Assembly (NCBI GenBank): GCA_025451775.1
Contig: JANWJU010000085.1
Location: 1 to 47,410 of the forward strand
From: Terriglobales bacterium
GTDB taxonomy: Bacteria; Acidobacteriota; Terriglobia; Terriglobales; SCQP01
Length of the DNA: 47,410 nucleotides
Reading direction: 5' to 3'
Positions 1,957 through 28,210 of the stretch are shown here, in pieces. Every line of letters begins with the position of its first letter. The stretch's first letter is position 1. Made by a program: the position numbers and the translations under genes. Below the pieces are notes generated by a model, which made no database searches, was not told where the DNA came from, and saw only the letters and a list, made by a program, of their open reading frames with translations.

Positions 1957-2871
1957 ATGCCCTCTCCCGGTCACAACCCGCCGCGCATCGCCCTGAGCAT
2001 CGACCTGGAGGAGTATTTCCAGGTCGAGGCCATGACGGGAGTGGTGCAGCGGGCGGATTGGGACGCCCTGCCCTCGCGGATCGAAGCCAACACCCATCGA
2101 GTTTTGGAGGCGTTCGCGGCGGCCTCGGCGCGGGCCACGTTCTTCGTGGTGGGGTGGGTGGCGGAACGTTTTCCGCGGCTGATCGCCGAGGTGGCGGCTG
2201 CCGGCCATGAAATCGGCTGCCATAGCTACTGGCATCGCCCCGTGTTTGGCCTCTCCGCCCAGGAGTTCCGCGACGACACGCGGCGCGCCAAGGCGGTCAT
2301 TGAGGCGGCCGCCGGTTGTGAGGTGCGGGGGTACCGCGCCCCCAACTTTTCCATCCGGACCCCAAGCCCGCAAGGACCGGGCGCCGTTGACGCCCCGGAT
2401 GCCATGGACTGGGCGCTGGAGGTGCTGGCGGAAGCGGGCTTCGCCTACGACTCCAGCGTCCATCCCGTGCGGCATCCGCTCTACGGCGCGGCCACCGCCC
2501 CGCGCGGGCCGTTTTATCTGCCGCGCTTTGGGCTGTGGGAGTTTCCCCTGGCCACGGTGGCGCTGGGCCGCCACCGCCTGCCGATGGCCGGCGGCGGCTA
2601 CTGGCGCCTGGCGCCGTGGGTCTACACCCGCTGGGCGATTCAGCAGGCGTTGCGGCAAGGGTTGCAGCCGGTCTGCTACCTGCATCCGTGGGAACTCGAC
2701 CCCGGCCAGCCCCGGCTGTCGCTGCCCGCCGCCCGCCGCTTCCGCCACTACGTCGGGCTGGCGGGCACGCAAAGCAAACTCCGCCGCCTGCTGCAAGAGT
2801 TTGGCAGTGAGACGCTGCGGGAGTTGTTCAGCGCCGAATTAGAGCCCACCCGCGCCGGAGCGCTGGCGTGA
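1957..2871 (+). CDS. Polysaccharide deacetylase, DUF3473 / XrtA-system type
   Basis: NodB-like motifs: ALSIDLEEYFQVEAM, ATFFVVGWVAERFPRLIAEVAAAGHEIGCHSYWHRPV, RGYRAPNFSI; C-terminal YLHPWELDPGQPRL. Confidence 0.9.
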   Translation: MPSPGHNPPRIALSIDLEEYFQVEAMTGVVQRADWDALPSRIEANTHRVLEAFAAASARATFFVVGWVAERFPRLIAEVAAAGHEIGCHSYWHRPVFGLSAQEFRDDTRRAKAVIEAAAGCEVRGYRAPNFSIRTPSPQGPGAVDAPDAMDWALEVLAEAGFAYDSSVHPVRHPLYGAATAPRGPFYLPRFGLWEFPLATVALGRHRLPMAGGGYWRLAPWVYTRWAIQQALRQGLQPVCYLHPWELDPGQPRLSLPAARRFRHYVGLAGTQSKLRRLLQEFGSETLRELFSAELEPTRAGALA

Positions 2872-2996
2872 TCCAGCAGGTGCTCATCGGCTTGGGGTGG
2901 CTCTCCGGCTTGGCCGGGCGCCGGTTAAACCCGTCCCGCGAAGGGGCCGCGCCGGGGGGCGCGGTTCAACCACGGGACCGGAGCGTCCAGCCATGA
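2868..2996 (+). CDS. Candidate small protein, 42 aa (VIQQVLIGLGWLSGLAGRRLNPSREGAAPGGAVQPRDRSVQP), not in supplied ORF track
   Basis: GTG start overlaps the upstream TGA (GTGA) and its TGA overlaps the likely downstream ATG at 2993 (ATGA); hydrophobic N-terminal segment. Confidence 0.45.
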   Translation: MIQQVLIGLGWLSGLAGRRLNPSREGAAPGGAVQPRDRSVQP

Positions 2997-4399
2997 AGAT
3001 GGAGGCTTACTCCGGACCCCCGCCGCGTCGCTTGGGCGAGCGCCTGGCAGGCGGCGTTGTTTTTCCCGCGTGGGCGCGGCGCGAGCACGCCGGATACCAC
3101 CGTTTCCGGCGCGACTTGGAACAAAGCCAGTTCGCCGCTCCAGCCGAGTTGGAGCAGTTGCAGCAGCGGCGCTTGGGGAAGCTGCTGGAATACGCCAACG
3201 TTCACTGCCCCTTGTATCGCGAACGCTTCCGGGCCGCGGGTTGGCGGGAGGGGGAGATGCCCGATGCGGCCGCATGGCGCTCGCTGCCGCTGCTCACCAA
3301 ACGCGACCTCCAGCAGCACGGCTCCGCAATCGAGTCGGAGGCTTTCCCGCGCGCGCAGCGGCAGCGCAATCAGACCGGCGGCTCGACCGGCAGTCCGCTG
3401 CAGTTCCAGGTCGATCGGGCGCGATTCGCCACCCGCATGGCCAGCACGCACCGTCACAACGCCTGGGCGGGCCATCAGCCCGGCGACTGGATGGCGGTAC
3501 TTTGGGGCGCCCGCCTCGATGCCCACGCGCAGGACGGACTGTGGGACCGCTGTCGCGAGCGGCTCTTGTATCGCACCGTCGAGCTCAACACCTCCAGCGT
3601 CACGCTTCCGGACTGGGACCGTTTCGTGCAGGCGGTGCGCCGCCGCCGTCCGCGTTTCCTGCTGGCTTATGCGCGCGCCGCCGTGGCGCTGGCCGAATAT
3701 CTGGACGGGTGCGGCATCGGCGACCTGCGTTTCCACGCCATCATCACCAGCGCGGAGGTGTTATCGCCGGCGCACCGCCAGATCATCGAGTGCACCCTCG
3801 GCGGGCGCGTCTTCAATCGCTATGGCTGCCGGGAGGTCAGCGTCATCGCCAGCGAGTGCGCCGCGCACTCCGGCATGCACGTCAACGCCGAGGCCCTGTT
3901 GGTCGAGGTGGTCCCCGATCCCGGACTGTCGGCGCCCTGGGGCCGGGTGGTGGTCACTGACCTGTTAAACTTCTCCATGCCGCTGATCCGCTACGACATT
4001 GGCGATGTGGCCCGTTGGTCGGAGGCGCCCTGCGTGTGCGGGCGCGGCCTTCCGATGCTCGCCGAGGTGCAGGGCCGTACCACCGAGTTTCTCCGCCTGC
4101 CCGGCCCCCGGGTCGTGTCCGGACCCGCCCTCACCCTCGTGTTCGCCGATCTTTCCAGCGTGCGCCAAGTGCAGATCGTGCAACGGCCCAGTCAGGAGGT
4201 CATCCTCAAGGTGGTGCCCGGCGCCGGCTATGACGCAGGCGTGCGCGCGGAACTGCGCCAGCGCCTCGACCTCTACCTGCGCGGCTCGGTGCCGCTCGCC
4301 ATCGAGGAGGTCGACGCCATCCCCTGCCTGGCTTCGGGCAAGTATCTCTTTGTGGTTCAGGAAGCGGCCGCGGCCGAAGCCACCGTCCTGGAAAGATGA
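2993..4399 (+). CDS. Phenylacetate-CoA ligase-like adenylate-forming enzyme (CapK/PaaK family)
   Basis: QTGGSTGSPLQFQ, FNRYGCREVSVIASECAAHSGMHVNAE, VVTDLLNFSMPLIRYDIGD, CVCGRGLPMLAEVQGRTTEFL. Start chosen at 2993 (ORF open to 2897). Confidence 0.88.
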   Translation: MKMEAYSGPPPRRLGERLAGGVVFPAWARREHAGYHRFRRDLEQSQFAAPAELEQLQQRRLGKLLEYANVHCPLYRERFRAAGWREGEMPDAAAWRSLPLLTKRDLQQHGSAIESEAFPRAQRQRNQTGGSTGSPLQFQVDRARFATRMASTHRHNAWAGHQPGDWMAVLWGARLDAHAQDGLWDRCRERLLYRTVELNTSSVTLPDWDRFVQAVRRRRPRFLLAYARAAVALAEYLDGCGIGDLRFHAIITSAEVLSPAHRQIIECTLGGRVFNRYGCREVSVIASECAAHSGMHVNAEALLVEVVPDPGLSAPWGRVVVTDLLNFSMPLIRYDIGDVARWSEAPCVCGRGLPMLAEVQGRTTEFLRLPGPRVVSGPALTLVFADLSSVRQVQIVQRPSQEVILKVVPGAGYDAGVRAELRQRLDLYLRGSVPLAIEEVDAIPCLASGKYLFVVQEAAAAEATVLER

Positions 4400-13498: not shown

Positions 13499-14872
13499 TT
13501 AGCGCCGGGCGCTCCGGCGCCAGGCGGCCACGCTCAAGCTGCCCGGCCCCGCCGCCACGAAGCCGGCGGCGGCCTCCGGCGGCGGGGCTGGCGCGGGGGC
13601 GGCGAGCTCGAACTCCCCCGGCGTTTGCGCCGCCACCATGGCGGAGGTGGCCGCCGTGAGACCGGCGAGGAGATACCAGGTTGAGCGGTAGACGTCGTGG
13701 GAGGCGTAGCCCGCAAAAAGCAGGACAAAAATCACATAGTTCGTCGCCCGTGGCAATGCGCAAAGCCACGGCGGCCCGTTGGCCTTCTCGAGCTGCTTGC
13801 GAATGTCGATATTGGTGCGCACGAGAATGGTGACCATGCCGGCAAAGGTGATCAGCCCGAACAATCCGAGCTCCCCGATTATCTTAAAGAACATCGAATG
13901 CGCATCCAAATAAATCCGCCGTTCGGCAATCGGCCAGTACTGGCCCCCGTTCGCGTCGGCATAATCGCCGACCCCGATACCGGTGAGCGGATTATGCAGG
14001 AACATATGCCAACCACCCTGCCAGGAGAGCAGGCGCAGTTGGTAGGCCTCGTCGCTGGCGCGTCCGGCCGCGGTCATGGTGGATTCGTAACGGGTCTGAT
14101 ACTGGTTGGGGAGCACCATCCAAACGACTGCGCAGGCGGCCAAGGTGATGGGGAGCAGCACGAAGCGTCGCTTCGAGCCCAGGATGTAGAGCCCCAACAG
14201 GACGGCCAGGGTGTAGAGCCCGGTGCGCGACCCGGTCAGCAACATGCACCAGAGGCAGGTGGCGGCGAGCCCCAGCATGACCAGCCGGAGTTTGCCGTTG
14301 CCCTTGCCCAAAAACATCAGCAGCATCGGGAGGGCGGCCACCATGGTCAAGCCCAGCGTGTCGGGCGCATTGGAATCGTTGGTCAGACCGACGAGCCGGT
14401 CAAAGGTGCCGTCAAAGTAGAATGAGCCGCTATAGAATTTGATCAAGGCGGATACGGCAATATAGCCCAACAGCAGGCCGTAAACCGTGAGGAACGTGCG
14501 CAGTCGCTTCGGCGTGTTGACCAAGTTCACGATCAGCAGCGACAGCAGCACGGTCTTGCCGAAATCCAGGGCGTTGTCGAGCGCGTTGGAGATCCAATAA
14601 GCGAGCGGAACGCTGGCCAGCACGGCCGCGTAAAAGGCCAGCATCCAGCCGCCGATCCGGGTCACCCGCAGACGGTGGCTGCGGATCACAAAACTAAGGA
14701 TAATCAGGATGCCGCAGATCTTTTCAACGTGAAGCGCGCCCAGCAGCGTGAACACCTGCTCCGGCTGGGCCACGTTGAACACCAGCAAGCCCAACAAGCC
14801 GGCGTAGGGGTTCAGGAGCCCCCAGGTGCACAACCCCAGTGCCGCCGCCGCCGTGACATAATTCAGCCACAT
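13499..14872 (-). CDS. O-antigen ligase-like membrane protein (Wzy/WaaL family, exosortase-associated O-glycosylation ligase type)
   Basis: Multi-TM; LTGSRTGLYTLAVLLGLYIL, MFLHNPLTGIGVGDYADANG, AHSMFFKIIGELGLFGLITF. Confidence 0.85.
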   Translation of the reverse strand: MWLNYVTAAAALGLCTWGLLNPYAGLLGLLVFNVAQPEQVFTLLGALHVEKICGILIILSFVIRSHRLRVTRIGGWMLAFYAAVLASVPLAYWISNALDNALDFGKTVLLSLLIVNLVNTPKRLRTFLTVYGLLLGYIAVSALIKFYSGSFYFDGTFDRLVGLTNDSNAPDTLGLTMVAALPMLLMFLGKGNGKLRLVMLGLAATCLWCMLLTGSRTGLYTLAVLLGLYILGSKRRFVLLPITLAACAVVWMVLPNQYQTRYESTMTAAGRASDEAYQLRLLSWQGGWHMFLHNPLTGIGVGDYADANGGQYWPIAERRIYLDAHSMFFKIIGELGLFGLITFAGMVTILVRTNIDIRKQLEKANGPPWLCALPRATNYVIFVLLFAGYASHDVYRSTWYLLAGLTAATSAMVAAQTPGEFELAAPAPAPPPEAAAGFVAAGPGSLSVAAWRRSARR

Positions 14873-18420: not shown

Positions 18421-19560
18421 CTAAGGGGTGCGGCGCGGGGGCCGCGCGCGCTTGAGGGTATGCAGCAGCCGGCCGCCCAGGGTGTTGGGAAAGGCCGACA
18501 GGAACACATGGGGGGTGCCGGATGCCGACCACTTGCGCTCGTATTCAAAGGGCTCGCCGGTGAAGGCAAACAGCACCTTCCGCTCCGCCACGCACGCGTT
18601 GAGGATCTCCTCGATGAGCAGGTGGCCGGGGCCGCTGGCGGCGAATCGCTCATCGTAGCACCAGCGCATCGGGTAGAAAGAGTCGGGGCCTCGCAGGCCG
18701 TAGCTCATGGCAATGGTCTCATCACCTAGCCGCAGGCGATGCATGATGAAGGCCCCGGTGCCTGCGGTCGTGCGCGCTAATTCCTCGTAGAAGCGGCGCA
18801 CCGGGGCGGGCTTGCGCAAGATGGCATTACCGCCGGGGCGCCCTTTCCAGCCGGAGGCCTCCAAGCGAAAGAAATCATCAAGGTCGGCGGCGAGGGCGGC
18901 GGTGGTGGAGGTCAACTGAAGCGGCCCCAGCGCCTGGAGGCGGCGGCGGGTGCGGCGCAGTTCGGCGCGAAACTTGCGCGAGGTTTGCTCGAAACCCGGC
19001 GGCACGGTCGAGTTGGGGGTGGCGAGCAGCGGCAGCGCACGGGTCTCGATGGGCGAGGAGCGGCGGACGACGTGGCAGCCGTCGCGGGCGGCCGCATGCA
19101 GCAGCGCCTCGGCGCCGCCACCGGGCGGGGTATCGCGCAGCTCGAGGTAACTCCAGCCCCGGTCCCGCGCCAGGAAGCGCCACATGGCGGTGGCGACGGG
19201 CTCGCGTGCGGCGCCAGTGGAGCAGATAAAATCAAAGCGCAGCGTATGGTGATTCGCCGCCGCGCGGAGGCGGCGCACGTAGACGCCGCGGAACCAGGCC
19301 CGCTCCGCAATGAGGGGCAGAACGCCCAGCAGCCGGCCCGCTTGGTGGGCGACAAGCAGGCGCAGTTGCGCCGGATTTTCGAAGGTGCGCACGTGAGCGC
19401 TGACCCACTCCGGGCTCATGAAGGGGGAGAGCCCGGAGTGATCGCAGAGTTCGCGCCACGCCGGGGCGAGCTGGGGAAGTTCGGCGAGGCCGCCCGCGAC
19501 GCGGACCTCAATGGGCACTGCCCCGCCGCCATCATCGGACCCGGCACGGTGGCCACTCAT
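18421..19560 (-). CDS. BioF2/FemAB-like GNAT acyltransferase
   Basis: PLIAERAWFRGVYVRRLRAAANHHTLRFDFI, RKFRAELRRTRRRLQALG, MHRLRLGDETIAMSYGLRGPDSFYPMRWCYDERFAASGPGHLLIEEIL. Confidence 0.82.
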   Translation of the reverse strand: MSGHRAGSDDGGGAVPIEVRVAGGLAELPQLAPAWRELCDHSGLSPFMSPEWVSAHVRTFENPAQLRLLVAHQAGRLLGVLPLIAERAWFRGVYVRRLRAAANHHTLRFDFICSTGAAREPVATAMWRFLARDRGWSYLELRDTPPGGGAEALLHAAARDGCHVVRRSSPIETRALPLLATPNSTVPPGFEQTSRKFRAELRRTRRRLQALGPLQLTSTTAALAADLDDFFRLEASGWKGRPGGNAILRKPAPVRRFYEELARTTAGTGAFIMHRLRLGDETIAMSYGLRGPDSFYPMRWCYDERFAASGPGHLLIEEILNACVAERKVLFAFTGEPFEYERKWSASGTPHVFLSAFPNTLGGRLLHTLKRARPPRRTP

Positions 19561-19567
19561 TGCCGCC

Positions 19568-22015
19568 TCACGTGCCGGATGGGAGGCGCCAGCTCAGCCC
19601 TCTGCTTGGCCTTTCCCAAAGGCCCCGCGCCCATGGTGTCACCGCACATTTTATCCAGCACAGCAACCTGCCGAAGGAGCCGCGCGGAAAAATATAAACA
19701 TAGCCCACGGGGAGCCCGCTGTGGGTCCATTTGCGCTTGTACTGCGACTCCGCGCCGTTGAAATAGAAGCGCTCAAGCCCAACCGGCGGTTGGGCACATT
19801 CGCCCAGGATCGCCTCAATCAGAAGATGACCCGGGCCGAAGCGGGCCAGGTCCTCGTCGTAGGTCAGCTTGAGGAGTTCGTAGGTGTGGCCGTCGCACAC
19901 GCTCAGATCCATGGCGATCGGCTTGCCGTCAAGCTCGAGGCGGTGCAGAACCAAGGTCCCGCGCTGCGCCAAGGCGGCTGCGGCCTGATCGTAGAAGCGG
20001 CGGGTGGCGGGTCGGCACCGGATGGCGGATTTCTGCCGGCCCTTCCAGCCCGCCGCTTCGAGATCGTAAAATGCACCCAACCCGGCGGCGAGATCCCCGG
20101 CTGCGGTGGAGGCCCGCACCAAGCGGATTTCGGACGCGCCGCCCTGAGCCGCCGCCCAGGACTGGAGATTACGCCGGGTGCGGCGCAAATCTGTGCGGAA
20201 GCTTCCCTTGGTAGCGTGCATGCCCGGGGGGAGGCCGGGGAGCGGCGGGGTGTTCAGGTCGAGGTAGAGGCTCCGTGTGCCTTCCCGGCGTCCGGCCCGG
20301 AGGTCGCGGGCGCGCGCTTCCCCCACCAAGGCGTCCGCAGCCCCGCCCTGCGGGGCTTCCGGCAGCACCACCGCGTCCCACCCGCGACGCTGGGAGAGGT
20401 AGCACGCGATCTCGCCGACGGCTTGCCGGCCACGCTCGCCTGCGGCCGTGACCAGGTCGAAACGCACCGAATGCGCGTTCGCAGCGCCACGGAGCCGCCG
20501 CACCGGGAGGCCGAGAATCCACCCTCGTTCCTGGAGCAGTGGTAACACCGCCGCCAGCGCTCCCCGATAACGGGCGGAAAGCAGCGTCAGTTTGGCCGGG
20601 TTCTCGAAGGCTTGCAAATGGGCGCGCAGCCAGTCTGGGTGCAGAAACGGCGAGAGCGCGGGATGGTGGGCGGCGCACAACCCCGCCCACTCCGGTGCCA
20701 ACGCCTCGAACCCCTCCAGGCCCGCTGTCTCCGCGACCGCCCAACCCTGCGAATTAAGGTTGGGCGGGGCTGCGGCGGGTGCGGTGCGCGGGCGCGGGCG
20801 CCGCGGGGGGCCGGCGGCGCGCACCGCCCGCCAGCGCGCTCCCGCCCGTCCGCGCCAGCGCGCGGCAACCTGCCGCACGCGCCAAGCCTGGCGGCTCCAG
20901 CCGCCCTTGAACGTCGGCTCCCATCCGTAGAGGGTGGTGGTGTGACGGGCCCCGTCCGCCCATTGCGCCTTATAGGCCTCGTCGCCCCGCAAAAAATCAA
21001 ATCCGTTCAGATGCAGCCGGGTGATCGCATCTTCAAAAACCTCCGCCAAGAGGATTTTGCCCACGCCGTCCGCCTGCAGAGCGGTATCAAAACCCGACTG
21101 GTAGAAAAAAAGCACCTCGCCTTCCACCATGCCGTAAAAGACGGCGGCAATGCGCCCGTCGCACTCCAAGCGGGCCAAGTAGAGCTTGCCTTGAGCCGCC
21201 AGGCGCTGGATGAGTTCCTTATGGAAGGCGAGGTAGGCGGCACGGTCGAAGTTGCTGGTTTGGCCTTGGCGGGCGCGCGCGAGGCGATGGAGCCGGGCCA
21301 GTGCCGTCAGCGTGGGTTCAAGTTCAGCCGGTGAGGGGTCAGCCAGGAAGCGGGTCTGATACCGTCGGTCCAGCCGCCTCCGGTCGCGCCGCAGGCTGCG
21401 CACGAACTCGGGATGGGAGCGCTGGATTTCACCCCATAATGCGGTCGCGTCCGCAGGCAGGCGACGGTAATAGCAGGTTTCCGCTGCTTGAGCTTGCAAG
21501 GCGATGCTGGAGTCCATCGTCCGCAAAGCCTCAGGCAGAGGCGAATCCTCCGCCAGATCCGCCAGGACCAGGGTGTCCCAGCGCGAGCGCCGGCGTAGCA
21601 CCTCGCGCATTAGCGCCGCCGCAACCTCGCCTCGCTCCTCCGGCCGAGCCAGCAGGTCCAGGTGGTCGGCGCACACCGCCGATCCCCGGTGGCCCAGGAA
21701 CTCCAAGGAACGCACCGGCATCCCCGCCGCCCGGCGGCGAACGATGTGCAAGGGCAACAGGCCGCGCAACCGGCCGTCAGGCGAACGCGCGGTGACGACC
21801 ATCAGCTCCGAGCTGCCGTGGAAATGCCGCCACCAGGTGAGGATCCAATCCCAGCACAAAAAGGGGGTGGGCCTTGCGCTCGCCGTTGCCAGCTCGTCCC
21901 ACTCGGGCGCCAGGCTGCACAGGCCCGACTCGGTCTCAACGCAATCGGGAGTCAGTTCGCCAACCTCTGGGCCCAGTGGGACGCGCGTTTGATTTGCCGA
22001 TGCCTCTCCCGCCAT
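19568..22015 (-). CDS. Tandem double BioF2/FemAB-like GNAT protein
   Basis: Two homologous halves: HPEFVRSLRRDRRRLDRRYQTRF...GKILLAEVFEDAI and GSFRTDLRRTRRNLQSWAA...FGPGHLLIEAILGECA. ORF open to 22246, start chosen at 22015. Confidence 0.82.
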   Translation of the reverse strand: MAGEASANQTRVPLGPEVGELTPDCVETESGLCSLAPEWDELATASARPTPFLCWDWILTWWRHFHGSSELMVVTARSPDGRLRGLLPLHIVRRRAAGMPVRSLEFLGHRGSAVCADHLDLLARPEERGEVAAALMREVLRRRSRWDTLVLADLAEDSPLPEALRTMDSSIALQAQAAETCYYRRLPADATALWGEIQRSHPEFVRSLRRDRRRLDRRYQTRFLADPSPAELEPTLTALARLHRLARARQGQTSNFDRAAYLAFHKELIQRLAAQGKLYLARLECDGRIAAVFYGMVEGEVLFFYQSGFDTALQADGVGKILLAEVFEDAITRLHLNGFDFLRGDEAYKAQWADGARHTTTLYGWEPTFKGGWSRQAWRVRQVAARWRGRAGARWRAVRAAGPPRRPRPRTAPAAAPPNLNSQGWAVAETAGLEGFEALAPEWAGLCAAHHPALSPFLHPDWLRAHLQAFENPAKLTLLSARYRGALAAVLPLLQERGWILGLPVRRLRGAANAHSVRFDLVTAAGERGRQAVGEIACYLSQRRGWDAVVLPEAPQGGAADALVGEARARDLRAGRREGTRSLYLDLNTPPLPGLPPGMHATKGSFRTDLRRTRRNLQSWAAAQGGASEIRLVRASTAAGDLAAGLGAFYDLEAAGWKGRQKSAIRCRPATRRFYDQAAAALAQRGTLVLHRLELDGKPIAMDLSVCDGHTYELLKLTYDEDLARFGPGHLLIEAILGECAQPPVGLERFYFNGAESQYKRKWTHSGLPVGYVYIFPRGSFGRLLCWIKCAVTPWARGLWERPSRGLSWRLPSGT

Positions 22016-22135
22016 CCGCAACATTATAGCCAAAGAGCCAAAGAGCCAACGCCAAGCCGACCAGGATTTCAGGGCTGCGCCCGACTCCGGCCAGCGGCGG
22101 CATGGGGGCGAAGCCACTGGGGCTGCCGGTTGGTG

Positions 22136-22347: not shown

Positions 22348-23064
22348 ATGAAAGCAAAATTAATAAAGATCGTGTTCGCTATCCTGGGACTGGGCGCAAT
22401 GGCATTTGCCGGCTCAATTCCAATCACCTTCATCGCCGGGGGACCGAGTAACCCTGGTGGCACCCAATACTACCCCTACACCATCAATGCGAATGGGCAA
22501 GATGTCACCGTCGCTTGCGACTCCTACTTTGAGCACGTCACGAAAGACGAAAACTACACCGGGTGGGCCAGCACCTATAACGACCTGAGCAATACCGTGT
22601 TCAACCATGGCGTTGCCGCGCCAGACCTGCAATACCAGGAGCTTGCCTACCTCTACACGGAGGTGCAGACGTTCTCCAGCCCGAGCCCCGAGGCCGCGGC
22701 CGTCAACTACGCCATTTGGGATTTGTTCGAGGCCGCACCTGGAATTGACGGTGGCAGCCAAATCACCCAGGCGCAGGCAGCGACCGATTTCGCCAGCGAC
22801 TCCAGCGATACCGACAACTCGGCATACTGGCTGAATCTGGCATCGCTTCAGAATTACACCAATTTCAACTTCTCCAATTTCGTGATCTACAGCCCGGACC
22901 TCGCCAACACGACTGGCTGGACCGACGGTCAGCCGCAGGAGTTCATCGGAGAAGTGCCGGAGCCGGCGACGCTGGCGCTGTTCGGCAGCGGCCTTCTGGG
23001 TCTGGGACTGTTCTTCAAGCGGCGTTTAGCGGTTGGTGATGCCGACCTGAACCTCAACGCCTAA
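22348..23064 (+). CDS. PEP-CTERM sorting-domain protein 1
   Basis: Signal peptide MKAKLIKIVFAILGLGAMAFAG; C-terminus VPEPATLALFGSGLLGLGLFFKRR. ATG at 22348. Confidence 0.92.
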   Translation: MKAKLIKIVFAILGLGAMAFAGSIPITFIAGGPSNPGGTQYYPYTINANGQDVTVACDSYFEHVTKDENYTGWASTYNDLSNTVFNHGVAAPDLQYQELAYLYTEVQTFSSPSPEAAAVNYAIWDLFEAAPGIDGGSQITQAQAATDFASDSSDTDNSAYWLNLASLQNYTNFNFSNFVIYSPDLANTTGWTDGQPQEFIGEVPEPATLALFGSGLLGLGLFFKRRLAVGDADLNLNA

Positions 23065-23147: not shown

Positions 23148-24098
23148 ATGCCCTCCTTTCCTCCTGCGGTCCGGGCGGACCCTGCCGGCCTCAACCCTCG
23201 CGCCGCCGCCCCTGGGGCCCGCACCGCCGCCGCGGTTGCGGCTAGCGGCAGCCTGAGCCGCCAGCGTCTGCTGTTCGGGCTGGGGGCGGTGGCGGTGGCG
23301 CTGGCCTACCTGCCGGTGCTGGCGGGGTTAGCCTCGGATTGGGCTACCAACCCCAATTACTCCCACGGTTTCGTCATCCCCTTCGCGGTCGCTTACATAG
23401 TCTGGCGGCAGCGCGCGCAACTGCGGCGGTTGCCGGTGCGGCCGAGCGCCTGGGGATGGGTGCTGGCCATCGTCTCCCAGGTGATCTACTTGGTGGGCTA
23501 CCTGGGCGCCGAGTATTTCCTGCAGCGCATCTCGTTGTTGTTCCTGATCGCCGGCGGCATTGTGCTGCTCTATGGCTGGCGCCATCTGCACTCGCAGCTG
23601 TTTTCGCTGGCGCTGTTGCTCATCGCCATTCCCCTGCCGGCGCTGATCTTCAACGCCATCGCCTTCCCGCTGCAATTGCTCGCTTCGAGTTGGGCGACGG
23701 GGCTGCTGCATGCGGTGGGCATCCCGGTATTCCGCTCCGGCAACATCCTGGTGCTGCCGCACCGCAGTCTCGATGTGGCCGAGGCCTGCAGCGGCATCCG
23801 CTCGCTCTTTAGTCTGATCGCGCTGGCCATGATCGTGGCCTACTTCGTGCCGGCCCGCGCCTGGATGCGGCTGGGTCTGGTGCTGACGGCGGTACCCATC
23901 GCGCTCGCCGCCAACGCCTTCCGCATCGGCGCGACCGGCGTGCTGGGGCAGTGGATGGGCGCGGCGGCCAGCGAGGGCTTCTTTCACGCTTTTTCCGGAT
24001 GGCTCATCTTCGTGGTCGCCTTCGCCGCCCTGCTCGGCGAAGCCGCCTTGGTGCATCGCATGGCCGAGCGCCGGGGTGGGGCGCGCGCCGCCGTTTAA
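23148..24098 (+). CDS. xrt: Exosortase (exosortase/archaeosortase family)
   Basis: Multi-TM; NPNYSHGFVIPFAVAYIVW; catalytic Cys in VAEACSGIRSLFSLIALAMIVAYF; Arg in PIALAANAFRIGATGVLGQW; His in GFFHAFSGWLIFVVAF. Confidence 0.93.
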   Translation: MPSFPPAVRADPAGLNPRAAAPGARTAAAVAASGSLSRQRLLFGLGAVAVALAYLPVLAGLASDWATNPNYSHGFVIPFAVAYIVWRQRAQLRRLPVRPSAWGWVLAIVSQVIYLVGYLGAEYFLQRISLLFLIAGGIVLLYGWRHLHSQLFSLALLLIAIPLPALIFNAIAFPLQLLASSWATGLLHAVGIPVFRSGNILVLPHRSLDVAEACSGIRSLFSLIALAMIVAYFVPARAWMRLGLVLTAVPIALAANAFRIGATGVLGQWMGAAASEGFFHAFSGWLIFVVAFAALLGEAALVHRMAERRGGARAAV

Positions 24099-24132: not shown

Positions 24133-24780
24133 ATGGCTTCAACCCAGCGCCGTTCTTGGATGTTGTTGATCGTGCTGCTGCTCATCACCGTGGGCGTCCG
24201 CACCCGCCTCGGCGCTTCGCCGGCGGTGAATCTGGAACAGCCGCTCGCCCTGTTTCCCAACCAAGTGGGGACGTGGCGACTGGTGGGCCAGCCGGCGCTG
24301 AGCGCCGACGTGGTGCACGTGCTGGACGCTGACGCCTACATGGTCCGCAACTACGCCACCCCGCGGGGGCAGCAGGCGCAATTGTTCGTGGCCTACTACC
24401 GCAGCCAGCAGGCGGGCGAGAGCATGCACTCCCCCAAGAACTGCCTGCCAGGATCGGGCTGGGAGCCCATCCAAAACGACGAGGTGGCGCTCGCCGCCGG
24501 GCCGGCGGGCGCGATGGCCAACCGTTACGTGGTAGAAAACTCCGGCAACCGCGCGCTGGTGCTGTACTGGTACCAGGCCCAGAGCCGCATCATCGCCAAC
24601 GAGTACTTCGGCAAGGTCTATCTGGTGTGGGACGCCATGCGCCATGGCCGCCGCGATGGCGCCATCGTCCGGGTGCTGGTGCCCATGGATCCCGGGCAAA
24701 GCGTGGCCGCCGCCACCAGCGCAGCCTTGAGCCTGGCCAACCCGAGCCTGCCGCTGCTGCGGCAATTTCTGCCGCAATAA
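24133..24780 (+). CDS. Exosortase-associated EpsI family protein
   Basis: LALFPNQVGTWRLVG, VAYYRSQQAGESMHSPKNCLPGSGWEP, LVLYWYQAQSRIIANEYFGKVYLVWDAM. ATG at 24133. Confidence 0.9.
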   Translation: MASTQRRSWMLLIVLLLITVGVRTRLGASPAVNLEQPLALFPNQVGTWRLVGQPALSADVVHVLDADAYMVRNYATPRGQQAQLFVAYYRSQQAGESMHSPKNCLPGSGWEPIQNDEVALAAGPAGAMANRYVVENSGNRALVLYWYQAQSRIIANEYFGKVYLVWDAMRHGRRDGAIVRVLVPMDPGQSVAAATSAALSLANPSLPLLRQFLPQ

Positions 24781-27487: not shown

Positions 27488-28210
27488 CTAGACGGCCGCG
27501 TCGCCTCCGTTGCTCGCGGAGGCAACGGCGAGCCACTCCTCCGGCTGGCGCTTCCACGCCAGCAAGGCCAGCCCGGCCAGCCCGGTGAGCATGAGGAAGA
27601 CGGTGCCCGGCTCCGGAACTTCGCCGATGTACTCCTGCGGCGTCCCGTCCTGGCTGGGCCAGCCCGAGGCCGGGGTGTAAATCACAAAATCGGAAAAATC
27701 AACCCCGCTGAACCCACCGAGGGCCGCCGCACTGGCCTTATTTAACCAGTAGGTGGAGGAGGTATTCGAGGTGGGATGCGAGGTGTTGACGCCAGGAGCG
27801 GCCTCGAACAGGTCCCACATGGCGTAGTTGATGGCCTCGTTGATGCTGTTGTTCGGAAGGAGCGGGGTTGAGAACTGGGTAAACAGCCACGCCGCCTTCT
27901 CGTATTGCAGCGTATCCGCCGTGCCGAACATGGTTCCGCTCAGGGTCGAGAAGGTATTCACGTTCGCCTGCCACGACTCACCCAGCTGGACGTCGTCGAA
28001 ATAGTCGTCGCAGGCCACGTTCATATTGACGCCGTTGACATTGAGGACATAAGGGAAGTAGTACACCCCGGTGCTCGCCGGTCCTCCGTAGTCAGCCGCG
28101 TTGGTTCCCATCGATACGGTGATCGGGCTGGCGGAGGCCAGCGCCCCCAGCCCAAGTACAAGAAAGGCCAGTGAGCACAGAAAATGGAATGGACGCCGTT
28201 GAAGTGACAT
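27488..28210 (-). CDS. PEP-CTERM sorting-domain protein 2
   Basis: MSLQRRPFHFLCSLAFLVLGLGALASA signal peptide; C-terminus VPEPGTVFLMLTGLAGLALLAWKRQ; homologous to protein 1 across the ectodomain. Confidence 0.9.
   Translation of the reverse strand: MSLQRRPFHFLCSLAFLVLGLGALASASPITVSMGTNAADYGGPASTGVYYFPYVLNVNGVNMNVACDDYFDDVQLGESWQANVNTFSTLSGTMFGTADTLQYEKAAWLFTQFSTPLLPNNSINEAINYAMWDLFEAAPGVNTSHPTSNTSSTYWLNKASAAALGGFSGVDFSDFVIYTPASGWPSQDGTPQEYIGEVPEPGTVFLMLTGLAGLALLAWKRQPEEWLAVASASNGGDAAV

Follow-up and report, generated by a model that had tools for sequence, protein, structure and literature searches.

A 42-codon reading frame that overlaps both of its neighbours in an exopolysaccharide locus is probably the truncated front end of a ligase gene

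In the stretch of Terriglobales DNA analysed here (47,410 nt, hereafter the window), the gap between a polysaccharide deacetylase gene and a CapK-like gene is occupied by a 42-codon ORF (MIQQVLIGLGWLSGLAGRRLNPSREGAAPGGAVQPRDRSVQP; 2868–2996, + strand) that opens with GTG and shares four nucleotides with each neighbour: with the deacetylase TGA at GTGA (2868–2871) and, through its own TGA, with the CapK-like ATG at ATGA (2993–2996). A sequence-only reading of this DNA had described both overlaps, exactly as we find them, and had proposed that the ORF is an overlooked, independent small gene. We therefore asked what this ORF is and how it came to lie there. Our analysis indicates that it probably stems from an O-antigen-ligase-like gene of the XrtA/exosortase exopolysaccharide system, of which it preserves the truncated front end. 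The features on which the argument draws are the following.

1957–2871, + strand: XrtA-system polysaccharide deacetylase (TIGR03006, PF01522, DUF3473)
2857–2860, + strand: Shine-Dalgarno (SD)-like GGAG, identified from the sequence, 7 nt from GTG 2868
2868–2996, + strand: 42-codon ORF, without a Pfam or NCBIfam match or a convincing homologue
2868–2939, + strand: probable 5' remnant of about 22–24 codons from a TIGR03097-related, O-antigen-ligase-like gene (DNA identity, shuffles, third-position GC content)
2930–2981, + strand: GC-rich imperfect inverted repeat in the ORF tail, single copy in the genome
2980–2983, + strand: SD-like GGAG of the CapK-like gene, identified from the sequence, 9 nt from ATG 2993
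2993–4399, + strand: CapK/PaaK-like gene of the AMP-dependent ligase family (NF045666 below cut-off, paralogues, start comparison)
13499–14872, - strand: intact TIGR03097-related O-antigen-ligase-like gene of the window locus (47% identity to the ligase of the congener G003, E 6e-110)

The deacetylase matches TIGR03006 (NCBIfam) at 305.6 bits against a cut-off of 276.2 (E 2.5e-91), and the top NCBIfam match of the CapK-like gene, NF045666 (E 1.7e-36), falls under its cut-off. For the start of the CapK-like gene we compared it with homologues in the congener G003 and in C55, a second exopolysaccharide cluster of the same genome. In these homologues 13–14 residues separate the start Met from a conserved LGER/LSDR (13 in the window), and that Met aligns with the window's to within one residue; nothing upstream of ATG 2993 was conserved in this comparison, and the upstream extension of the frame scored poorly for coding (-14.8). 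The gene thus likely begins at ATG 2993, as the sequence-only reading had it, and a start at 2897 was rejected on the strength of the start comparison and the coding score. Further along the window, an exosortase-like membrane protein gene (23148–24098) and the gene that follows it (24160–24780) adjoin a gene for a PEP-CTERM protein (22348–23064; GEVPEPATLALFGSGLLGLGLFFKRR), and a second PEP-CTERM protein is encoded at 27488–28111 (- strand). A very long ORF at 19568–22024 (- strand) appears as two fused FemAB/GNAT-like halves and lies beside a related single-copy gene (18421–19560).

The case for a small gene had leaned on the supposed improbability of two 4-nt overlaps within a single gap. 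As a baseline we used 593 kb of the same genome, about a fifth of it; the gene finder and start choices were home-made, so the overlap counts are approximate. Direct 4-nt (NTGA) overlaps joined 54 of the 323 co-directional pairs. In a further 160 pairs the gap measured 20–400 nt, and 4 of these gaps contained an ORF overlapping both neighbours by 4 nt (42, 11, 24 and 34 codons), where the component frequencies would give about 1.2. For the deacetylase–CapK gap the chance came to about 0.8% (0.181 x 0.256 x 1/3 x 0.526), and at this rate per gap several double overlaps are expected genome-wide. The double overlap is therefore uncommon yet not remarkable, and its claimed improbability does not stand. 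One ORF of 24 codons (MKRRNAAPLPGAGRKWKRKREGTR), with a 4-nt overlap at both ends, lies between a CapK-like gene and the ligase gene in C55 (L199, 8311–8379), and may reflect chance or a second coupling bridge.

If the ORF encoded a functional peptide, perhaps a membrane-associated one, relatives might be expected to carry it. Pfam and NCBIfam held no family match for the 42-residue product, a plasmid search returned no match, and no convincing homologue was found among 60 related genomes. The peptide search in these relatives gave many matches at E 0.01–1 and one at 2e-4, which we judged to be composition noise; the frame of the 2e-4 match holds three stops. At the DNA level the junction was found solely in the window's contig across the 60 genomes, with short weak matches elsewhere, and the gap had no Rfam match at E <= 1. 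Scanning the named genomes with CapK yielded no relatives with the same junction, and a scan by deacetylase alignment found relatives, none of them above ~50% identity. In C55, whose CapK-like gene shares 62–65% identity with that of the window, the paralogous deacetylase–CapK gap measures 536 nt, differs in content and contains no counterpart of the ORF. The reading frame is thus conserved at this locus neither in the 60 relatives nor in the C55 paralogue, an outcome that the sequence-only reading had itself named as speaking against its proposal.

We next considered what stands at this junction in sister loci. The genome carries three diverged XrtA-type exopolysaccharide clusters (C55, C57 and the window's own, C85), whose deacetylases are ~62–65% identical to that of the window. 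In C57 the deacetylase TGA is overlapped by 4 nt by GTGATC, and in G003 by GTGATT, and in both cases this GTG opens an O-antigen-ligase-like gene of 436–446 aa, preceded in G003 by a similar GGAG at the equivalent position. These ligases match Wzy_C (PF04932) above its cut-off and fall under the curated cut-off of TIGR03097 (PEP_O_lig_1), the family of putative O-glycosylation ligases associated with the exosortase A system. A ligase gene also follows the deacetylase in G230, with an overlap of 1 nt, and in G316, at a distance of 3 nt; these genomes belong to two other families of the class. The gene order in C57 is deacetylase–ligase–CapK–CapK–flippase, and that in the window is deacetylase–small ORF–CapK–CapK–flippase, with the intact ligase gene elsewhere (13499–14872). 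Since the two orders match around it, the ORF holds the ligase's place, within a neighbour arrangement of the ancestral type. The CapK-like genes of C57 and the window are not one-to-one orthologues (the first one in the window is closest to those of C55 and G003); hence shuffling has taken place in the locus. The ligase gene occupies three different positions across C55, C57 and C85, which suggests that such shuffling was repeated. The 536-nt spacer of C55 (L199, 6431–6967) begins with GTGATCCTCGTC, which is suggestive of a ligase start (MILV); no significant ligase remnant was found in this gap. Moreover, 86 nt of the spacer recur at L199 15384–15463 with 87% identity, indicating that it includes a repeated element.

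Beyond its place after a TIGR03006 deacetylase, the ORF shares with these ligase genes the GTGAT(C/T) overlap, an SD, a hydrophobic N-terminus running to (L/S/F)NP and the DNA of the first ~22 codons. Over codons 2–24 its DNA identity with the ligase starts of C57, G003 and C55 is 62%, 62% and 54%, respectively, and these starts are themselves mutually 54–75% identical over the same stretch. This alignment requires one two-codon indel near the start, which counts against a remnant, and the null sequences were given equal freedom. Over codons 2–22 the mean identity to the ligase starts of the genus was 0.59, as compared to 0.40 ± 0.03 for codon shuffles and 0.41 ± 0.03 for block codon shuffles that kept the hydrophobic part separate; none of 2,000 shuffles of either kind reached the observed value. 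Of 517 gene starts tested, one scored as high as the ORF (0.767), evidently the C55 ligase itself, because C55 was among the scanned sequences; no unrelated gene start reached 0.59. Likewise, among 513 same-register sequences after stop codons the only one to reach the observed score was the ORF, and separate tests against the three ligases of the genus gave P of about 0.0007, 0.0007 and 0.0013. The similarity has clear limits: it fades past ligase codon ~20–28, it was not significant with ligases outside the genus or with the window's own ligase, and at the protein level it was weak (P 0.02 with residue shuffles, 0.14 with the hydrophobic block preserved), so that the case for a remnant rests on DNA identity and position.

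These results bear on the reading that the ORF arose purely by chance in a GC-rich spacer, with no coding-gene ancestry. The expected number of double overlaps per genome would accommodate such an origin, as would the 3' half of the ORF, which is non-coding in appearance, yet no shuffle equals the 5' DNA similarity of the ORF to the ligase starts that stand at this junction in sister loci. We consider this already disfavoured reading unlikely.

The coding character of the ORF changes along its length. GC content at third codon positions falls from 100% over codons 1–19 to 74% over codons 20–42; summed along the frame, the codon log-likelihood climbs to +6.8 before dropping to -0.3. The final value compares with -21 to -22 in the other forward frames, and this coding-like composition, along with the SD and the hydrophobic N-terminus that the sequence-only reading had correctly noted as coding-like, is what a genuine small gene would offer. 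However, the coding-type signal is confined to the ligase-like part and fades after about 22 codons, the uninterrupted hydrophobic stretch spans only ~13 residues, which is short for a membrane span, and neither DNA nor protein is conserved or matched by a known family. A functional 42-residue peptide is thus very improbable, and the proposed independent gene gives way to an ORF whose position is held by a ligase start in sister loci. Nor can the ORF be a ligase: the TIGR03097/Wzy_C ligases are polytopic proteins of ~430–460 aa, whereas its 42 codons include none of the Wzy_C domain and none of the further membrane spans.

The tail is of a different nature. Its last 15 codons show a marginal resemblance to the 3' ends of ligase genes (P 0.037 in codon shuffles, 0.015 when set against the 3' ends of genes), in a comparison of low-complexity Ala/Pro tails; an internal deletion in frame, sparing both ends of the ligase gene, is therefore conceivable. 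The inverted repeat in the tail was considered as a repeat element and as a strongly structured leader, and both ideas were dropped: allowing 3 mismatches, the genome still contains a single copy of the hairpin sequence, and the hairpin structure, which gave a z of -4.0 in a chosen 86-nt window, gave -1.8 in fixed windows, where 17 of 54 other gaps were as structured, so that it is not unusual for this genome. Judged by its sequence, the ORF most likely combines a ligase-gene remnant with a low-complexity tail.

Gene remnants and deletion scars occur in bacterial operons, and the ORF would likewise be a truncated 5' end with its start signals, lying between intact neighbours. According to this scenario, a ligase gene once lay directly 3' of the deacetylase gene, overlapping its stop at GTGA, and a deletion or gene rearrangement took away nearly all of it. 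Left behind would be the SD, the GTG and about 22–24 codons, up to the Leu-Asn-Pro motif past the first hydrophobic stretch, and the remnant frame would by chance read through the GC-rich tail to a TGA on the CapK-like ATG. We infer both this order of events and the absence of a functional peptide. Support for the remnant comes from the DNA identity and from the position and start overlap that the ORF has in common with the intact ligases of C57 and G003. Counting against it, no close strain shows the deletion in progress, and the junction may have been misassembled, since the genome is represented by one incomplete assembly of 161 contigs (82% complete).

A remnant could still be translated. 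Ribosomes finishing the deacetylase could reinitiate at GTG 2868 and end on the CapK-like start, as the -4 spacing at each end puts the start and stop of the ORF within coupling distance of both neighbours. This leads to a further reading, compatible with a remnant origin, in which the ORF is a coupling bridge that passes deacetylase ribosomes to the CapK-like start across 121 nt, the peptide itself being irrelevant. A review describes short ORFs whose sole role would be to deliver ribosomes (PMC12548453), and the ORF shares with such uORFs and with NTGA coupling the 4-nt overlaps at both ends, an SD and a short frame that ends on the next start; it differs from them in that the putative bridge is not conserved. 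An SD and an overlap are present at both ends of the ORF, and the genome has many direct NTGA overlaps, yet the CapK-like gene carries its own GGAG. The slight excess of double overlaps over expectation depends on four cases, and the stem-loop just upstream of the CapK SD is ordinary in fixed windows. As for comparative support, a doubly overlapping ORF does lie between CapK and ligase in C55, but the deacetylase–CapK gap of that cluster has no bridging ORF, and the bridge itself finds no support among relatives. On balance we regard such a bridge as a tentative possibility. That the decapitated ligase start has been kept under selection, as a 42-codon uORF coupling the deacetylase to the CapK-like gene, seems rather improbable; if true, it would mean that losing a gene from within an operon can give rise to a coupling element.

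Returning to the ligase remnant, the ORF is most likely evolutionary debris of an ordinary kind rather than a newly discovered small protein, and in other respects, too, the biology here is ordinary. Its interest lies in showing that a larger gene, once lost, can leave a doubly overlapping small ORF as its scar, which makes overlap of stops and starts weak evidence for a new microprotein. Seeing which gene holds the same junction in sister loci offers a cheap filter for small-gene predictions.
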